From Oscillospiraceae bacterium (GTDB lineage Bacteria > Bacillota > Clostridia > Oscillospirales > Ruminococcaceae): DNA of 64,000 nucleotides. The stretch covers positions 113,304 to 177,303 of the forward strand of contig JAFTXQ010000010.1 of the NCBI GenBank assembly GCA_017461565.1, given 5' to 3'. A program made the position numbers and the translations under genes. This document shows positions 16,147 to 23,742 of this stretch, one piece after another; position 1 is the stretch's first letter, and every line of letters begins with the position of its first letter. The notes beneath the pieces were generated by a model that saw nothing but the letters and a program-made list of their open reading frames with translations, did not search any database and was not told the origin of the DNA.

Positions 16147-16974
16147 CTATGTAAAATATATTTCAGGAACAAGCTTATCGGGAAAACTCTCTTCGATGAT
16201 ATAGTCATCAAAGCAGCATGGCTGTGTGCAATGTTCCCTTAGCCTGGGCGTCACCGTCTCAAACACCCTGTAAGCAGGATATCTTCCGCTTACAGCATCG
16301 TGCTGCCACCAGTAAAGCCGCTTCATCTGCATACTTCCCTCAGGCCGTGCAGCGCTCGCATCATTTGTAAAGATGCTGTATAGTGCATCCTTCAGCTTGT
16401 CTGCGTCACGCCTGTCAAATCCGGTTTCCGCTGCCCTGAACGGGCATACCGAGCCTTTCATCACATAAAGCCCGTACCTTACATAGCTTTTAAAACCAAA
16501 GGTGTCAGCATTGCGTCTGCCTGCACTCACTGCATTTATGCACCTTGTAAGTGCACTCTCTGCTATCTCAACAGGATGCACGCTTCTGGCACGCTGTATA
16601 GTTACAGGACCACGTATTCCCAACGACCTGTGTTCGGCTGTCCTGATATTGAATGCAAACACCTGCCCGAATGTTCGAACATCGTACCACTTTCGGCAGG
16701 CACCACTGATAAACTGACGGCTGTCGATATATTCCAGCTGATCCGCACGGGCGCTGAGGGTATCCCCACCTAATGATGACGGTGTTATAAATATCTCCTC
16801 GCCTGTCTGTGACAGCCTGTTCCTCAGCTTGCGTTTTATACAGACGTCACTGATAATACCATGTCCGTCGGTATCGATACGTGGTCTTCCGCTGCACAGA
16901 GGATCACCGTTAGGGTTTGCTCCGTCAACGGATATCAGCATCAGAAAATCTATTCTGCCATTCAGCGTCTTCAT
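16147..16974 (-). CDS. cas7: Type I-C Cas7 (Csd2) backbone subunit
   Basis: A 275-residue RAMP protein that coats the crRNA spacer in the type I-C Cascade complex. Diagnostic blocks are SVDGANPNGDP, RPRIDTDGHGIISDVC, CRKWYDVRTFGQVFAF, LGIRGPVTIQRARSVHPVEI, NDASAARPEGSMQM and YWWQHD. It looks complete and under constraint. The ATG has GAGAGGAG nine bases upstream and lies inside the end of cas8, giving a 50-base overlap. Last gene of a three-gene operon. No cas3, cas4, cas1, cas2 or repeat array appears beside it. Confidence 0.92.
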   Translation of the reverse strand: MKTLNGRIDFLMLISVDGANPNGDPLCSGRPRIDTDGHGIISDVCIKRKLRNRLSQTGEEIFITPSSLGGDTLSARADQLEYIDSRQFISGACRKWYDVRTFGQVFAFNIRTAEHRSLGIRGPVTIQRARSVHPVEIAESALTRCINAVSAGRRNADTFGFKSYVRYGLYVMKGSVCPFRAAETGFDRRDADKLKDALYSIFTNDASAARPEGSMQMKRLYWWQHDAVSGRYPAYRVFETVTPRLREHCTQPCCFDDYIIEESFPDKLVPEIYFT

Positions 16975-18121
16975 GATTGACGCTCCTCTCTATAAGCTCA
17001 TTATAATATCGCAGACTGTCGGCCGACGCTTTGTAATCACGCCTCACAAGGGCACTAATGATATCCGCAGGCTGCTTTCTTCTGTCAAGCAGGCAGGAAA
17101 CCATACGCTGAATCGTGTTCTCAACAACCCCGGCTGCACAAGAGCCATTGTTCATTCGCCCGAAAGCCTGTTGCGCAATATGTATTATTCCTATATCCAC
17201 TGCATTTTTCCATGTGCTCATGCACATAGCGTATTGATGTGCTGTGATCCGCCTGTGAAAGGACACAAACAATCTGCCCTTTGATATCTCATCAAACGCC
17301 ATAACGGTAACTTCGCCCTGAGGCAGCGTGGACTTCTCAGCTCCGTAGAACGGCAGCTGTACAGTGTTTCCTGCGCTGTCCCAGACAACGAACACCTTAT
17401 ACCCTGCATGCACGCCGTTGTTTGAAATCAGTCTGCGAAGCACTGCGTGCATTTTGAATGAACACTCCATACCGACAGGATATGAAAAGCCTCGGCTTTC
17501 TGTTCTTTCATCCATGATACGATCACGCTCTCCTAAAGAAATAAGCTTAGCCGAGCTTTTCTCGTTTGTGATATGCTTCTGATGCACCGAGGCAATGGTA
17601 GCAAATTCACCCTTTATGCAACAGATATCAACAGCAGCCGCATTACTTCGCACATAGGATATGTATGAATCTTGAAGCGACTTGTCCTCCCATAGCGCAA
17701 CACCGTCCACTTCAAATCTAACAGTCAGACGTCCGTCATTTTTAATATGCGCATTGAAAAACAAGTCATACGCTATACACCCTTTGTCAAGGTAGTCTCT
17801 TACCGCAATAAGCGCCTGCGTGGAAAACACTGAATCAGCCCAGCCGTTGAGACGCTTCATATAAGCGATGTATTTCTTAGCTTCGCCACACTCGGGCGTC
17901 AGATAACACAGCCTGTCATACAGCGGATGCGGCTCTATGCCGTTTGTGCGGCATACCGAATGTTCTGTAACAGGCGCCGCTATTCTTTCACGTGTATATT
18001 CAGCGCTGATAAATCGTCCGGACCCGCTGAGACGTACCACCACATCCGTATTGATAAACGCATGAAACATAGGTATATCCTCTCCGCTATAAAGCGAAGA
18101 AAGCTCATCAAACCAGTGCAA
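16925..18121 (-). CDS. cas8c: Type I-C Cas8 (Csd1), short form
   Basis: About 399 residues of the type I-C large subunit, against roughly 550-650 in typical members. Family features are APVTEHSVCRTNGIEPHPL, CIKGEFATIASVHQKHI, AKLISLGERDR, VFVVWDSAG and, near the end, VENTIQRMVSCLLDRRKQP. The homology stops where the helical C-terminal part normally begins. The start is uncertain: a TTG (18119-18121) overlapping the cas5 end fits the family N-terminus, while an ATG at 18068-18070 has a better GAGAGG site. It overlaps cas7 by 50 bases. In complete systems it recognises the PAM and recruits Cas3. Confidence 0.85.
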   Translation of the reverse strand: MHWFDELSSLYSGEDIPMFHAFINTDVVVRLSGSGRFISAEYTRERIAAPVTEHSVCRTNGIEPHPLYDRLCYLTPECGEAKKYIAYMKRLNGWADSVFSTQALIAVRDYLDKGCIAYDLFFNAHIKNDGRLTVRFEVDGVALWEDKSLQDSYISYVRSNAAAVDICCIKGEFATIASVHQKHITNEKSSAKLISLGERDRIMDERTESRGFSYPVGMECSFKMHAVLRRLISNNGVHAGYKVFVVWDSAGNTVQLPFYGAEKSTLPQGEVTVMAFDEISKGRLFVSFHRRITAHQYAMCMSTWKNAVDIGIIHIAQQAFGRMNNGSCAAGVVENTIQRMVSCLLDRRKQPADIISALVRRDYKASADSLRYYNELIERSVNHEDAEWQNRFSDADIR

Positions 18122-18797
18122 GAGTGTTCCATTCCTTTGCTTGTCTGTCGCCGATATGCCTGTGTATACATTGCCACGGCGGCGGGAACTCAATTATACC
18201 CTTTTCCATACGGCAGTGGAAAAGACGTTCACTCAACGCACATCGTGTACGTGCATTGTAAGCCTCATCAGGATAAGTAAAGCCATGATGGATGATTCCT
18301 ATATCAAGATCGGTATCGTCATAATACCCATGTTCCACCGAAAATCTACAAGGTGCGACATAGCATGGACAGTCACGGGTGCCTAAAAAAGCCTGTCTTG
18401 CCCCGCCACGTGACAGCATACGCTTTGCCCTGCTGTAATGCATCTCCTCACAACGGTCACATTTAAACTCGGGGCGGTTTTCGTTCCAGATGAAATGCGC
18501 CTGCACATGATAGCGCACATCGCAAAGATATGTGTTGACCGCAAGCTCACATGACTGCGACCTGTATCTCCTGAGCACAACAGACTCTGCCTCGCTGCGT
18601 ATCTGGTTCATTACCCTTACCTTGTCTACGATCCATATTAATGTTGGTTTCCAATACACCGAGGATATTATGCCTTTCAGCGCCTCGTATGTAGGCACAG
18701 GCAGTGTTGCTCTTCCTGCCGCCGCAGTTGTTAACGGGTCTGAAAACAGCGCACGTTCTCCCCATACGCTGAACTCTATAATATTGTCATGCTTCAC
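18108..18797 (-). CDS. cas5: Type I-C Cas5 (crRNA-processing subunit)
   Basis: A 229-residue Cas5d/Cas5c protein, which in type I-C replaces Cas6 as the crRNA endonuclease. Recognisable blocks are IIEFSVWGERALFSDP, PVPTYEALKGIISSVYWKP, VDKVRVMNQIRSEAE and RQAFLGTRDCPCYV. The GTG start lies seven bases after GAGGG; a GTG nine codons upstream is rejected. By hand alignment the catalytic Lys-His pair of Bacillus halodurans Cas5d reads Met-His here (EEMHYSRAKR), so processing activity is open to doubt. First gene of the cas operon with its own consensus-like promoter. Confidence 0.88.
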   Translation of the reverse strand: MKHDNIIEFSVWGERALFSDPLTTAAAGRATLPVPTYEALKGIISSVYWKPTLIWIVDKVRVMNQIRSEAESVVLRRYRSQSCELAVNTYLCDVRYHVQAHFIWNENRPEFKCDRCEEMHYSRAKRMLSRGGARQAFLGTRDCPCYVAPCRFSVEHGYYDDTDLDIGIIHHGFTYPDEAYNARTRCALSERLFHCRMEKGIIEFPPPWQCIHRHIGDRQAKEWNTLALV

Positions 18798-18830
18798 TGT
18801 ATTACCCTCTTTTCGTTTACTCACTAAGAA

Positions 18831-19082: not shown

Positions 19083-19111
19083 AAAAACGGGGCGAGAAGA
19101 ACTCACCCCGT
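19083..19111 (-). terminator. Terminator after radical SAM gene
   Basis: ACGGGGTGAG/CTCGCCCCGT stem with a five-base loop followed by T-runs when read on the minus strand, just past the radical SAM stop. Confidence 0.85.
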
Positions 19112-19123
19112 CAGTTGTTATTA

Positions 19124-20191
19124 TCAAAACAAAATATCTTTAAAGCAGACCTGCTGCTCAAGCTTATCGTAATCCCAGCTATGGCAGGAGCCTCCGCCAC
19201 AGAACTCCTTAGAAGTGCAGGCTGCACATTTTTCATTCTTTTCTGCAAGAGATGTTCTGAAATACTCAAAACGGTTATTCCAGACCTCGGTGAAATCGTC
19301 ACGCAGGATATTTCCCTGTATCGTTTCCGGGCGGCGCTCTATATCAAGACAGGCGCCGATATCGCCGTTTGCCATCACGCTTGCAGTGTATACGCCTGCG
19401 TTGCATAAGAAGTACCAGTCACGCACCTCACGCTCGTAATCAAGTCCGAGATAATGGGTGCATCCATATTCGACAGGCATACCCAGCGCACGTTTTTCTT
19501 TGATGAAACCAAACAGACGACGGTAGTCATCAGCTTCAAGCAGAAGCTCGGGATACTCCTTTGCCCTGCCTATCGGCTCGAGATTTATCACCCTCCAGGA
19601 ATCGATATCTATGCCGCACATTATGTCATAAAGCTCGTCAAGCTCATTGATGTTCTTTTTATGCACCACGGTGGTTATCTGGACATGGCGGAACGTTCCC
19701 TGCCTGATGAGTGCCTCAACGCCACGCATCGCCTTATCGTAGCCACCCTTTGTCCTGCGGAACCAGTCGTGCGTATCTCGCAGACCATCGATGCTTATCG
19801 ATATCGTACCCATTCCGCACTCGTGAAGCTGCTTTGCGACCTCGTCGGTGACAAGGATACCGTTGCTTGTCATGCCCCAGCGGAAGCCAAGCTTGTGCGC
19901 ATAGCCCATGATATCGAAGAACTCCTTGCGCAGCAGCGGCTCACCGCCGGTTATACACAGCATGAGCTTGTCTGTGCCGAAATCATGTTTTATCTTGTCG
20001 AGGAAGTCAAAATACACCTGTACGGGAAGCTCTTCTGATCTTACATCGTTGCAGCGGCTGCCGCAGTGCAGGCAATTCTCATTACATCGTAGCGTAAGCT
20101 CAAGAAACAGGCTGCGGAGCTGTGGTTGCTTCATAAGCTGCTGACGATAATCCGCAAGCATCTTAAGGTGCTTGGTCTTTATATTATCCAT
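19124..20191 (-). CDS. Radical SAM/SPASM peptide-modifying enzyme
   Basis: A 355-residue radical SAM protein. The CxxxCxxC cluster motif (CNENCLHC) is at residues 36-43, CITGGEPLLRKEF is the SAM-binding GGEP segment, and SISIDGLRDTHDWFR is typical of peptide-modifying members. The C-terminus is a SPASM domain for auxiliary clusters (CNAGVY, GDIGACLDI, CAACTSKEFCGGGSC). The ATG follows GGAGA and overlaps by eight bases the preceding 62-residue lipoprotein, whose VYGPP motif recurs six times in the next gene. Context makes these lipoproteins its likely substrates. I cannot assign a named maturase family; it resembles in layout the radical SAM/lipoprotein pairs described in Bacteroidetes. Confidence 0.85.
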   Translation of the reverse strand: MDNIKTKHLKMLADYRQQLMKQPQLRSLFLELTLRCNENCLHCGSRCNDVRSEELPVQVYFDFLDKIKHDFGTDKLMLCITGGEPLLRKEFFDIMGYAHKLGFRWGMTSNGILVTDEVAKQLHECGMGTISISIDGLRDTHDWFRRTKGGYDKAMRGVEALIRQGTFRHVQITTVVHKKNINELDELYDIMCGIDIDSWRVINLEPIGRAKEYPELLLEADDYRRLFGFIKEKRALGMPVEYGCTHYLGLDYEREVRDWYFLCNAGVYTASVMANGDIGACLDIERRPETIQGNILRDDFTEVWNNRFEYFRTSLAEKNEKCAACTSKEFCGGGSCHSWDYDKLEQQVCFKDILF

Positions 20192-20372
20192 CGTTACTTT
20201 CTCCGTTATCGATATTTGCACTCAACGTTGTATCCTCTGTCTGATATGCGCCCTTATCCGTATCAGCAAAACCATTCTCCGCATCCTGAGGCGGCGGTCC
20301 GTATACGCAGCCATTCATATTAAGCACTGCTGCGAACATAGCCGCTGCGGCTGCAAGCTTCTTTACCTTCAT
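20184..20372 (-). CDS. Small lipoprotein with one VYGPP motif, candidate RiPP precursor
   Basis: A 62-residue protein. The signal peptide (MKVKKLAAAAAMFAAVLNMNG) leads to a lipobox-like cysteine at 22, and VYGPPPQD follows that cysteine immediately. The rest is acidic and polar. AGGAGG precedes the ATG, which lies two bases after the upstream stop; the stop codon overlaps the radical SAM start. The single motif directly on the lipidated cysteine suggests that modification happens before or without leader cleavage. Function unknown. Confidence 0.75.
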   Translation of the reverse strand: MKVKKLAAAAAMFAAVLNMNGCVYGPPPQDAENGFADTDKGAYQTEDTTLSANIDNGESNDG

Positions 20373-20374
20373 AC

Positions 20375-21064
20375 TTAATCCTCCTGTCCGTCGATAGATT
20401 CGGCTTCCCTTGTAGCAAACCACTCGGGTGGTCCGTATACACAAGGAGTTATGTTCATTTCAGGCTTGTAAATGTCTATATCAGGCTCAAGTTGACTTTC
20501 ATCGGTATCCTCTGTTTCATCCGTTTCAACGATCTCCTCAGACTCGGAAGCACCTCCAAACCACCCGGGAGGGCCATAAACATCCTCATTCATGTTATCA
20601 GATGGGACAAAATCAGTGATATCGCCTGACTCAGATGTATCTCCAAACCACTCAGGAGGACCGTATACTCCTGCGTTCACATTGACAGAGGGAACAAATA
20701 CATCTCCCGCCTCTTCCGTGAGATACGCTTCGGGTGTTTCCGAAAGATCATCCGTCCACTCAGGCGGTCCGTATACAGCAGGAATTATATTCATTTCAGG
20801 CTCGAAGCTATCTTGAGTCTCCTCGATGACAGGGGGAGGACCATATACATCTGCATTCTGATTATCGGCAGGATCGAACTCATCTGATGTATCATGGCTC
20901 TCTGTGCTTTCAGCCGATTGTACATCAGATGATTCCACACGATAATTGTAGTCATCGGGGGGAGGTCCGTAAACGTTCTGCACTTCATTATCACCACATC
21001 CGCCTGCACTGAAAAGCGCAGTAACAGCTGCCGCAGTGAGTATGGCTTTTTTTCTGGGCTTCAT
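20375..21064 (-). CDS. Multi-repeat VYGPP lipoprotein, candidate multi-core RiPP precursor
   Basis: A 229-residue acidic lipoprotein: signal peptide with lipobox cysteine 23 (FSAGGC), then six VYGPP cores at 31, 73, 97, 133, 162 and 209. From the third onward the core extends to VYGPP(E/G)W(F/T), and several are preceded by an N-(M/V)-N segment. Linkers of about 20-40 residues are rich in Asp, Glu, Ser and Thr and poorly conserved. The aromatic residues (Y, W, F) within an invariant core and a radical SAM/SPASM enzyme two genes downstream suggest modified cores displayed on the cell surface. AGAGGTGA precedes the ATG. Confidence 0.8.
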   Translation of the reverse strand: MKPRKKAILTAAAVTALFSAGGCGDNEVQNVYGPPPDDYNYRVESSDVQSAESTESHDTSDEFDPADNQNADVYGPPPVIEETQDSFEPEMNIIPAVYGPPEWTDDLSETPEAYLTEEAGDVFVPSVNVNAGVYGPPEWFGDTSESGDITDFVPSDNMNEDVYGPPGWFGGASESEEIVETDETEDTDESQLEPDIDIYKPEMNITPCVYGPPEWFATREAESIDGQED

Positions 21065-21206: not shown

Positions 21207-22382
21207 TCAATCCTGCGTGACATGGGAGGTCAGCCTGTTCTTTCTCTCTGAAAGGACAAACATCAGTACTAGTATGGCTACAAGATACCACGGGAACAGC
21301 GAAACGCTTATATTTTCGGCAAGCAGTCCGAAAAGCGGCGGCATGAACGTGGTTCCCACATAGGCGCACGCCATCTGGACTCCGATGACTGCCTGAGAAT
21401 TCTCTGCGCCGAAGCACTCGGGAGTAGCATGGATAAGACAGGGATACACAGGCGCACATCCAAGACCCGCAAGCGAAAGCCCTATGACCGCACCCACAAG
21501 TCCAAACGGCAGGAACATTACAATTATGCCTGCGCCGATGATACCAACTCCTGCCCTGATAAGCTGCTTATCGCTGAATTTATCTGTCAGAAAGCCGTTG
21601 AGAAATCTTCCCACGGTTATGCCGAGATAAAATACCGATCCCAGACCTGCTGCCTCCTCGGCGGAAACACCTTTATCAAAAACGATGTAGCTTACCGCCC
21701 ACAGACCAGCTGTGCTCTCAACCGCACAATAGCACAGGAATGTGAGCATTGCCTCTTTAACACCTCTTATAGAAAGTGTCTTTTTTAAACCAAGACTTTG
21801 TGACGAAATATCAGAAACGTCAGAGTTTTCTGCGGCTTTCTTCTTCCACAGCGGCAACGAGATGATAAGCATTGCCGTAAGCACCGCCTGTATCACAAAT
21901 ATTGCGCAATATCCGCTGCTCCATACACCACCGTTCGTAAGAAAATACGACATTACAAACGGTCCTGTGCAGCAGCCTACTCCCCAGAAACAATGAAGCC
22001 AGCTCATGTGACGGCTCTCGTAATACAGCGCAACGAAATTATTCAGTGCCGCATCCACGCTTCCTGCACCGAGGCCGTAGGGTATCCCCCACAGGCAGAG
22101 CTGCCAGAACCCTGTACTGAGCGAAAACCCTAGCAGCGCAACGGCGGTCATAGCGACGCTGAGAGCGGTCACAAGTCCTGTGCCTAGCTTTGCTATCAAC
22201 CTCTCGCTGAATAGCGCAGAGAGTATCGTTCCGCCCGAAATTATCATACTGACTACTCCCGCATACGAAACAGGAACATTAAGTCCCTCGTACATACTCG
22301 GCCATGCGGCACCGAGAAGTCCGTCAGGCAGACCAAGACTTATAAACGAAATATAAATAATTGCTAAAAGCAGATGTACCAT
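21207..22382 (-). CDS. MFS transporter
   Basis: A 391-residue major facilitator with about 12 hydrophobic spans. It begins IIYISFISLGLPDGLLGAAWP, the style of FucP/YbjJ-like permeases, with a central loop rich in charged residues (about 190-215). The ATG behind AGGAG is taken, although spacing is short; a GTG six codons upstream lacks a ribosome site. It lies 142 bases upstream of the VYGPP lipoprotein operon on the same strand. A role in that system is possible, but nothing in the sequence demands it. Substrate unknown. Confidence 0.82.
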   Translation of the reverse strand: MVHLLLAIIYISFISLGLPDGLLGAAWPSMYEGLNVPVSYAGVVSMIISGGTILSALFSERLIAKLGTGLVTALSVAMTAVALLGFSLSTGFWQLCLWGIPYGLGAGSVDAALNNFVALYYESRHMSWLHCFWGVGCCTGPFVMSYFLTNGGVWSSGYCAIFVIQAVLTAMLIISLPLWKKKAAENSDVSDISSQSLGLKKTLSIRGVKEAMLTFLCYCAVESTAGLWAVSYIVFDKGVSAEEAAGLGSVFYLGITVGRFLNGFLTDKFSDKQLIRAGVGIIGAGIIVMFLPFGLVGAVIGLSLAGLGCAPVYPCLIHATPECFGAENSQAVIGVQMACAYVGTTFMPPLFGLLAENISVSLFPWYLVAILVLMFVLSERKNRLTSHVTQD

Positions 22383-22409
22383 GTTCTCCTCTTCTGACAC
22401 ATTATTGCG

Positions 22410-23063
22410 TCATTCTTTATCTTTTTTATTCTTCACATTTTTATCTATGTCGTCCATCAGCTCGTTCACACGCTCGGTGTGGGACACCTTTGACATACGC
22501 TGACTTTTGTGCATACGGTCAAACTGTTCCATCACAAGCTTTGTGTCTACCGTGTTCTCCTCGGGACTCTTGAGACCTGCGTTTATTTCAAGCAGATAGA
22601 ACGGAGTAGCGGAAGGCGTCTTTATCTCTACATTAAGTCCGAAAAGATAGCTGTAGCTTATCGAGCGCATACCTGTTGTTATTATGACCTCGTAGCCTCT
22701 GCCGCCCTTCTGATTTTTAAGCGGTGCATATTCCACGCTTTTTACATCGTTGTAAAAAAAGAAATCCTTTTCGCCCGAGGGACGTGTCACAACGAACTCG
22801 GTCTCGGAAGCCTCGTACTCATAGTCGTCGTTAAGGGACATCAGGGCGCAGACGACCGCCAGCACCACAAGCATACCGACGCATATACCGAACAGAGTGC
22901 CGGTAATAAAATTGATATCCTCACCGAAATTGAAGCCGCAGGCTATGATCGAAATACCTGTCATCACAAGCCCTGCAAACATCATAGCCTTAAGCATCTC
23001 AACACGTGGATCGACACATTTAAAGCTTCCTCTGCGGCATATCAGGGTGTGTTTGCTCATCAT
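22410..23063 (-). CDS. Two-span membrane protein with C-terminal beta domain (paralogue A)
   Basis: A 217-residue protein. Two transmembrane spans (about 28-48 and 55-78) are followed by a soluble beta-rich segment. The segment shows EFVVTRPSGEKDFFFYNDVKSVEYAPL, GYEVIITTGMRSISYSYLFG and TPFYLLE, and a charged tail follows. The same pattern occurs in the next gene and twice in the gene at 58.7 kb. The beta segment resembles bacterial PH-like domains, but this is only by eye. It overlaps its upstream paralogue by four bases. Function unknown. Confidence 0.72.
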   Translation of the reverse strand: MMSKHTLICRRGSFKCVDPRVEMLKAMMFAGLVMTGISIIACGFNFGEDINFITGTLFGICVGMLVVLAVVCALMSLNDDYEYEASETEFVVTRPSGEKDFFFYNDVKSVEYAPLKNQKGGRGYEVIITTGMRSISYSYLFGLNVEIKTPSATPFYLLEINAGLKSPEENTVDTKLVMEQFDRMHKSQRMSKVSHTERVNELMDDIDKNVKNKKDKE

Positions 23064-23725
23064 CTTCTCCTCCGCTGATTTCTCGGCTGATATGTTATCT
23101 CCATTCCCTCTGTTTCAGTTTCATAACGGGAACGCTCGGTTATCTGCTCTACTACCATTGATTCAAAGATATCCATAACGCCCTCGCTGTCTATTTCGGG
23201 CTTGTGCTTATCCAACAGTCCGCAGTTGTAGCCGAGATAATAGAAAGGCGTGTCATTTAGATCAGTGAACACCTTGTTCTCTCCGAAGATATAGTGATAC
23301 TCCACTGTTCTTATGCTTGTGGTTATCCTTACGATGTAGCCACGATGTCTTCCGAAAAGCCTGAGCTCCTCGGAGTCGATATCCTGAATATCGCTGTAAT
23401 AGAAATATTCAGTAGCCTTTCCGGGTCCCTTTACGATGAACTCTTCCTCGGTCGCCTGATACTCGCATTTTCTGCCTTTGAGTATCAACCCGAACATCGT
23501 ACCGAAGATAAGATATACAGGCAGCATACAAAAGGCGAAAATATAACCGTCACCTCTGCGGGCTGTATTTATTTCCGTAGCAGAAATAGCCACGGGGATC
23601 GTTACTGCCAAGGCAGCAATAAGTATTACTCCGATTATGATAAGATATATCATCTCATGAGGATTTGCTATCCTGAACTCGCCTTTGCGCACTATCATTT
23701 CACGTGCATTTGTAGTTTCATCCAT
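23060..23725 (-). CDS. Two-span membrane protein with C-terminal beta domain (paralogue B)
   Basis: A 221-residue relative of paralogue A. An N-terminal KGEFRIANPHE motif precedes two spans (about 25-50 and 60-82) and a beta-rich domain with EEFIVKG, EYFYYSDIQDI, RGYIVRITTSIRTVEYHYIFG and TPFYYLGY. It ends in a basic RRRR tail. The N-terminal motif recurs as KGQFRTPHKYE in the fused protein at 58.7 kb. The ATG ten bases after AAGGAG is preferred to one overlapping the site. Likely co-expressed with paralogue A. Function unknown. Confidence 0.72.
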   Translation of the reverse strand: MDETTNAREMIVRKGEFRIANPHEMIYLIIIGVILIAALAVTIPVAISATEINTARRGDGYIFAFCMLPVYLIFGTMFGLILKGRKCEYQATEEEFIVKGPGKATEYFYYSDIQDIDSEELRLFGRHRGYIVRITTSIRTVEYHYIFGENKVFTDLNDTPFYYLGYNCGLLDKHKPEIDSEGVMDIFESMVVEQITERSRYETETEGMEITYQPRNQRRRR

Positions 23726-23742
23726 ACCAACCATTCTCCTTG

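Follow-up and report, generated by a model that had tools for sequence, protein, structure and literature searches.

Why does an Oscillospiraceae bacterium encode a radical SAM enzyme next to lipoproteins that repeat one short peptide, and what would the enzyme do to them? The genes that raise this question lie on the minus strand of a 64,000-nucleotide stretch of DNA, the whole of which is here called the window. A preliminary description had proposed three coupled genes for a six-core lipoprotein, a one-core lipoprotein, and a radical SAM/SPASM enzyme, and the ORF list contains all of them where they had been placed. The first (20375..21064) encodes, by ORF list and translation, a lipoprotein of 229 aa in which acidic linkers lie between six VYGPP cores. 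The second (20184..20372) encodes, by translation, a 62-aa lipoprotein with a single VYGPP right after the lipobox Cys (MNGC-VYGPP). The third (19124..20191), recognized by its Pfam domains, encodes the stand-alone enzyme with the cluster motif CNENCLHC. Its ORF as listed begins at GTG 20221; ATG 20191, which has GGAG upstream, gives 355 aa, and overlaps the 3′ end of the 62-aa gene by 8 bases, is the likelier start. As had been expected, both lipoproteins are likely to be lipidated, with lipoboxes recognized by eye (SAGGC and MNGC), and there is no protease or exporter gene in the three-gene unit. The 229-aa protein has no Pfam or NCBIfam match up to E 10, and the 62-aa protein has no Pfam match and one sub-threshold NCBIfam match (AgrD, E 0.89).

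A terminator-like hairpin with a T run (19086..19112, minus strand; 11 pairs, 7 GC) is the probable end of the operon; the scan that found it gave 6 such sites in 2.5 kb versus 2.2 in shuffles. Upstream, 142 bases off the unit and on the same strand, lies a gene assigned by eye to the MFS family (21207-22400). Beyond it on the minus strand lies an overlapping gene pair (22410-23734) whose two products, small membrane proteins of 217 and 224 aa, look alike and are judged paralogous by eye. On the other side, two overlapping minus-strand ORFs (16925-18824) resemble, by eye, Cas5 and Cas8c/Csd1 of CRISPR type I-C.

The cores of the 229-aa lipoprotein, located by translation, lie on the minus strand at 20960..20974, 20834..20848, 20762..20776, 20654..20668, 20567..20581, and 20426..20440 (cores 1 to 6), and that of the 62-aa lipoprotein lies at 20292..20306. 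Six VYGPP in 229 residues are not due to chance: the shuffled protein (n = 20,000) contained at most one VYGPP each time. No two of the six share identical 15 bases; as their codons differ, it is the peptide that is conserved. In the host genome TAYGGNCCNCC has 12 matches, 7 of them within this locus, and the remaining 5 equal the control count (5). YGPP is readable in frame at 3 of these 5: one is a site of the ATPase type (YGPPGLGKT), another falls in a long frame that looks like a protease, and the third lies in a frame without assignment. None of the three is a tagged lipoprotein. W and F had been described as following the cores from the third on; W does follow cores 3-6, but F follows cores 4-6 only, core 3 continuing as EWT.

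A pattern-based scan of 84,980 species, with one genome per species, returned 111 relatives, the best 80 of which were analyzed as loci; by title these belong to Ruminococcus, Lachnospiraceae, Oscillospiraceae, and others, and are mostly MAGs. A YGPP protein of 30-330 aa, encoded on the same strand at most 350 nt upstream or at most 1.5 kb downstream, was present near the enzyme gene in 70 of these 80 loci; when the tetrapeptide was scrambled in nine ways, the count was 0-3 of 80. Three extra partners, namely a seven-core 634-aa protein (L065), a protein with CAYGPGP (L066), and CVYGSPEW on a zinc-ribbon/membrane protein (L054), bring the loci with an adjoining core protein to 73 among the best 80 of 111 relatives. 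Most of these core proteins, not all, have a lipobox. No core was found nearby at L041, L060, L062, L084, L087, L088, and L089, of which L087 and L089 have <100 bases of sequence upstream of the match. Clustering of ORFs of at least 80 aa gave no recurrent neighbor family in more than 8 of the 80 loci, and hence no candidate for an RRE or exporter partner of that size.

The pairing was also evident in whole genomes, scored with a 20-residue core HMM built from units of adjacent proteins at the species-scan loci, not from the sampled genomes. Among 197 genomes of the window's family the enzyme is present in 12 (E ≤ 1e-50) and the core HMM in 10 (E ≤ 0.01). All 10 core-HMM genomes are enzyme-positive and none of the 185 enzyme-negative genomes has a core-HMM match, an absence valid at the sensitivity of the core HMM only, since single weak cores escape it (one-sided Fisher 3.4e-15, uncorrected for kinship). 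One of the enzyme-positive genomes that the HMM misses (G338) nonetheless has YGPP proteins beside the gene; the other (G246) has no core within the 13 kb examined. Among 391 genomes of the class, with the enzyme in 16 and the core HMM in 7, the corresponding counts are 7 of 7 and, at the same HMM sensitivity, 0 of 375 (Fisher 4.4e-11; the window's genome belongs to both samples, and leaving it out gives 1.1e-9). By eye, a YG.P partner lies within 1.5 kb at 15 of the 16 class-sample loci, window included. The partner of L172 carries YGVP, and that of L173, which lacks a lipobox, carries YGSP. No YG.P partner is present at L174, even across the 13 kb of L193, and L194 likewise has no core nearby. 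The conserved enzyme-tag system is real, and the co-occurrence that had been put forward as a check on it is borne out. Examples of the pair come from Bacillota, Bacteroidota, and Spirochaetota, plus one MAG labeled Coriobacteriaceae. A 3.8-kb contig of a MAG labeled Alistipes (L034; Bacteroidota) holds a clostridial pair with an enzyme 63% identical, through mislabeling or transfer. Viral contigs scanned by pattern contained no relative of P0001 or P0006; the P0009 scan yielded 20 weak ones, which are set aside here.

The family constrains the core closely. Among the partner proteins of the best 80 of 111 relatives, a list of 100 that includes some false members (the YGKP flavoprotein at L023 and the downstream protein of L062, both excluded from the count that follows), 95 proteins contain 211 YGPP. 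Y is preceded by V in 166, A in 23, L in 14, I in 5, M in 2, and T in 1, and in relatives this residue can be E, C, or G. Within the frames V-x-GPP and VY-x-PP of the same partner proteins, Y and G are never substituted; the final P is variable (11 VYGP-x). Cys stands at -2 in just 45 of 221 cores, so the Cys donor that would define a sactipeptide or ranthipeptide is not a constant of the family. Three positions upstream of the core have common occupants: F or Y (-11), P (-9), and N (-6). N(-6) is found in every one of the seven window cores, and F or Y at -11 in six of them.

These upstream residues recur inside the signal peptide. Where Cys is at -2 and the core abuts the lipobox, 25 of 30 cases have N(-6), which then lies inside the signal peptide, a typical form being F-x-AALNLNGC-VYGPP; where the first core is farther from the lipobox, N occupies the matching place relative to Cys in 5 of 50 partner lipoproteins. 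The 62-aa lipoprotein of the window, judged by its translation and the family pattern, has both F(-11) and N(-6) within its signal peptide. The F and N typical of internal cores are thus built into the signal peptide as a recognition-like element. Cleavage by signal peptidase II would take off the signal-peptide F and N, and the enzyme therefore probably acts on the uncut precursor, most likely in the cytoplasm and ahead of export. N(-6) is missing in the Bacteroidota partners and in the L175 protein, which places the element with the clostridial form of the system.

What the enzyme does may be approached through its relatives. It matches Radical_SAM (4.9e-24) and SPASM (5.8e-8) and no further Pfam domain; it has one close copy in its own genome, the sole other match there being 25% identical. 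The best NCBIfam model is TIGR04133 (294.5 bits; cut-off 425 not reached). TIGR04103, the model of PlpX-type spliceases, gives 108.7 bits (cut-off 725 not reached), and AhbD, NirJ2, TIGR04053, NirJ, MftC (119.9 bits), and others score above it. Pairwise identity is 24%-28% to PlpX-type, MftC, and NirJ rows alike and does not separate them. The best structural matches (VIA-align) are SuiB, anSME, ChlB, SkfB, and the sactipeptide enzyme 5why, with 14%-22% identity over the aligned parts. In the tree, the clade of the window enzyme contains the TIGR04133 enzymes of Bacteroidota and Treponema and is sister to TIGR04103 plus the trio enzymes, with support of 100/98 for the joint clade, in which TIGR04103 rows represent the PlpX type, PlpX itself being absent from the records analyzed. 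The outgroups are MftC, AhbD/NirJ-type, TIGR04053, and TIGR04347 rows. A first tree, which omitted three of the ownSPASM rows (L002, L099, and L101, which lacked a usable ORF or the cluster motif), gave the same grouping at 94/91, and 100/98 was obtained after row selection: ownSPASM L100 and L102, rSAM_Sinorh, rSAM_Rhizob, and rSAM_Paracl were further omitted because of long-branch flags in the first tree (T4053, likewise flagged, was retained), and AhbD/NirJ-type rows, L172-L175, and L196 were added. The motif CxxxCxHCGS is present in 26 of 26 joint-clade rows versus 0 of 11 other rows. The window clade has lost the seventh of the SPASM cysteines (position 333 of P0001), which the TIGR04103/trio rows keep. 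A residue comparison among the rows used nine outgroup rows, with AhbD left out.

IPR026482 is, we take it, the same family as TIGR04103. TIGR04103 itself is named nif11-class peptide radical SAM maturase 3. PMC11002830 describes PlpX as a SPASM enzyme of IPR026482 that, together with the RRE protein PlpY, cuts tyramine from Xaa-Tyr-Gly and rejoins the chain as an α-keto amide. According to PMC10533398, PlpXY substrates include MYG and LYG, the mass loss is 135.0757 Da, the leader is dispensable, and the splice tags include PIRPLYGLPI and PIRPGYGLPI, which are YGxP. The same paper reports that the majority of YGLP tags inserted in FtsZ were not spliced by PlpXY, so YGxP alone is insufficient for that enzyme. 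Products of the spliceotide class are protease inhibitors (PMC11117315). Among the loci collected here, a Nostoc precursor next to a TIGR04103 enzyme (853 bits) ends in ALYGLPPELF, near the window's VYGPPEWF, and matches leader_Nif11 (4.8e-19). TIGR04103 has a single match at E ≤ 1e-60 in 299 genomes of the window's phylum, under the cut-off (L196), where a precursor with TAYGIARPGG, NHLP-like by eye, lies ahead of the enzyme gene. All three partners seen in Bacteroidota and Treponema carry YGxP, and one clostridial TIGR04134 member carries YGPP.

What the analysis establishes is the gene pairing, the constraint on Y-G, the kinship of the enzyme, and the recognition-like element in the signal peptide; modification of the substrates, splicing as its chemistry, the order of events, and a protease-inhibitor role are inferred. 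A splicease-like modification of the lipoproteins by the enzyme is, in our judgment, somewhat better than an even bet. The enzyme would work in the manner of a splicease and with no RRE partner, converting each X-Y-G-P-P into an α-keto-β-amino residue with a loss of about 135.08 Da per core. Export and lipidation of the modified proteins would follow and leave the cell surface with one to several electrophilic ketoamides, in each of which the P1-like residue is small and hydrophobic (V/A/L/I/M). As the kin of the enzyme include a family that cuts the backbone at Tyr-Gly, keto groups at the surface are possible, and the clostridial X, small to medium and hydrophobic, would correspond to the P1-like residue of a ketoamide inhibitor. 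Their likeliest use would be the covalent, reversible trapping of hostile proteases. Counting against splicing is the lack of an RRE/PlpY gene in the operon, as PlpX acts with PlpY, and counting against the inhibitor role are cores on some apparently cytoplasmic proteins. The score far under the TIGR04103 cut-off, the pairwise identities that set no family apart, the lost SPASM Cys, the lower support in the first tree, the unspliced FtsZ tags, the trio partners of which half have YG, and the loci with no core nearby weigh against the splicease reading as well.

The strongest competing explanation, unlikely on our assessment but a serious one, is that the core Tyr or its neighbor is modified without splicing, by a cross-link from the Tyr Cβ to Gly, Pro, or X, a cyclophane, or an MftC-like Val-Tyr C-C bond. 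The MftC model outscores TIGR04103 on the window enzyme, V is the usual residue before Y, retained SPASM cysteines are common among cross-linking enzymes, and SuiB, anSME, ChlB, SkfB, and 5why head the structural matches. The tree, however, places MftC outside the joint clade, and the V gives way to A, L, I, M, and T, and to E, C, or G in relatives; because it is replaceable, a cross-link would lack a fixed partner. The window VY is moreover internal, whereas MftC uses a C-terminal VY (PMC8326336), and both mftA genes examined end in CGVY. In triceptides and cyclophanes an aromatic residue is linked to the third residue (aromatic-x-x, with a conserved acceptor); the comparison with them covered the Y-G-P of the cores, which is constant.

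VYGPP might instead be a docking site alone, with the chemistry falling on another residue, a lipid, or a cofactor. This is consistent with the presence of cores on a signal peptidase II tail, a DUF805 protein, and zinc-ribbon proteins, and the change at Tyr is itself deduced from kinship and motif; nothing else in common was noticed among the carriers, however, and Tyr-Gly is the motif of PlpX, the characterized sister enzyme, which makes docking alone improbable. Very improbable is the cross-linking of Tyr or Trp to a W or F downstream of the core (-2 Da each) that the preliminary description had proposed: some window cores are followed by W/F and F stands at +6 in 57 of 221 YG.P sites (partners of the best 80 of 111 relatives), but W stands at +5 in just 13 of them, the window's own VYGPPPQDAENG has no aromatic residue in the ten past the core, and it is Y, G, and the prolines that are kept, so the unconserved aromatic residues are optional. 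Tyramine excision, which for PlpXY means a change of -135.0757 Da (PMC10533398), agrees better with kinship and motif than a loss of 2 Da.

A more specific version of the splicease reading can be offered tentatively, as one less likely than not. The signal peptide would be the recognition leader of a lipoprotein splicease (F-11/N-6), so that no RRE partner would be needed, and arrays of ketoamides would be anchored protease traps. Its scope would be lipoproteins and, where a cellulosome is present, dockerin proteins, the tag being also borrowed by membrane and zinc-ribbon proteins. At the R. flavefaciens-type loci (L032, L033, L035-L038, L071, L083, and L195), secreted YGP(P) proteins with dockerin-like repeats lie beside lipoproteins. 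The Pfam Dockerin_1 check was made for L032 and L195 only, and these core proteins of R. flavefaciens and relatives match PF00404 at 2.2e-9 and 4.1e-6, respectively. A dockerin-borne core would sit on the cellulosome; dockerin-borne serpins offer a parallel for inhibitors carried in this way.

Other carriers are scattered. In three enzyme-positive genomes of different families, zinc-ribbon proteins on contigs apart from the enzyme (L150, G221:C1:4200; L183, G433:C5:6173; L187, G653:C39:75122) have a core of the form F-x-P..N..YGPP between the zinc-ribbon motifs and no evident signal peptide. Such a protein was rejected as a general member of the family, being found in 2 of 197 genomes only, with one match weak. 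A signal peptidase II (L159, G327:C47:8767; PF01252, 7.6e-33) in an enzyme-positive genome has MYGPP in its terminal tail, and a DUF805 membrane protein (L157, G274:C42:5623; PF05656, 2.8e-17) ∼0.5 kb from the enzyme has CVYGPP on its C-terminal tail. At L022 (2626-3989), five tandem one-core genes lie ahead of the enzyme gene, the first four with near-identical acidic tails and differing N-termini.

The splicease reading gives the orphan pair TIGR04133/TIGR04134 and its clostridial kin a concrete, falsifiable chemistry. If true, common gut bacteria would make backbone-edited electrophilic surface proteins, RiPP chemistry would reach permanent lipid-anchored proteins, and a leader- and RRE-free enzyme would be useful for installing ketoamides in proteins.

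The system had been called new. The window enzyme does fall below the TIGR04133 cut-off, but NCBIfam already couples a radical SAM/SPASM protein (TIGR04133) with a radical SAM-associated putative lipoprotein (TIGR04134). Among the papers available to the search, none treats rSAM_w_lipo, TIGR04133, TIGR04134, or VYGPP, and none combines YGPP with radical SAM; an earlier description is possible. TIGR04133/TIGR04134, represented here by Parabacteroides, Phocaeicola, and Treponema, is among the closest known systems, with its enzyme in the window clade and its lipoprotein adjacent. The window enzyme, under the TIGR04133 cut-off, likewise has lipoprotein neighbors. In TIGR04134 partners YGxP either follows the lipobox Cys at a distance of at most ∼12 residues (CEYGSP, CEYGTP) or comes immediately after it (SCYGMP), and the members seen have one core and a folded domain, in the L175 protein a carboxypeptidase-regulatory-like domain (sub-threshold Pfam match), whereas the window lipoproteins repeat VYGPP on acidic, apparently disordered chains. 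Neither window lipoprotein matches TIGR04134 (cut-off 39.8 bits), which P0004 (207.1), P0005 (43.7), and the L175 protein (52.3) reach. The Bacteroidota TIGR04134 partners, three in all, came from plasmid-classed records, and 146 genomes of the order of L034 gave one weak match and none above the cut-off.

The PlpX-type spliceases form the sister clade and share with the window system the HCGS motif, an X-Tyr-Gly substrate, and YGxP, which occurs both in the tag derived from PlpA2 and in the precursor from Nostoc. Unlike them, the window operon has no PlpY-like partner, its carriers are lipoproteins, and the seventh SPASM Cys is lost. The three-gene unit holds no extra gene for a PlpY/RRE partner, no neighbor of at least 80 aa is shared by more than 8 of the 80 loci, and P0002 and P0003 gave no match to a Nif11 or NHLP leader. 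The same sister clade includes the GDL-motif trio maturases (TIGR03913), 48% identical to the Nostoc TIGR04103 enzyme, whose partners are tiny DUF1843 peptides. Two loci, L107 and L114, are such maturases, and YG stands near the N-terminus of 3 of the 6 DUF1843 peptides read, which makes splicing by trio maturases possible. MftC, a SPASM radical SAM enzyme that acts on Val-Tyr, resembles the window system in motif, but it lies outside the joint clade and is encoded with MftB, and the window unit has no MftB-like third partner. The substrates and chemistry of SuiB, anSME, ChlB, SkfB, and 5why differ from those proposed here. The window system is thus akin to the curated TIGR04133 and TIGR04103 models and falls outside both.
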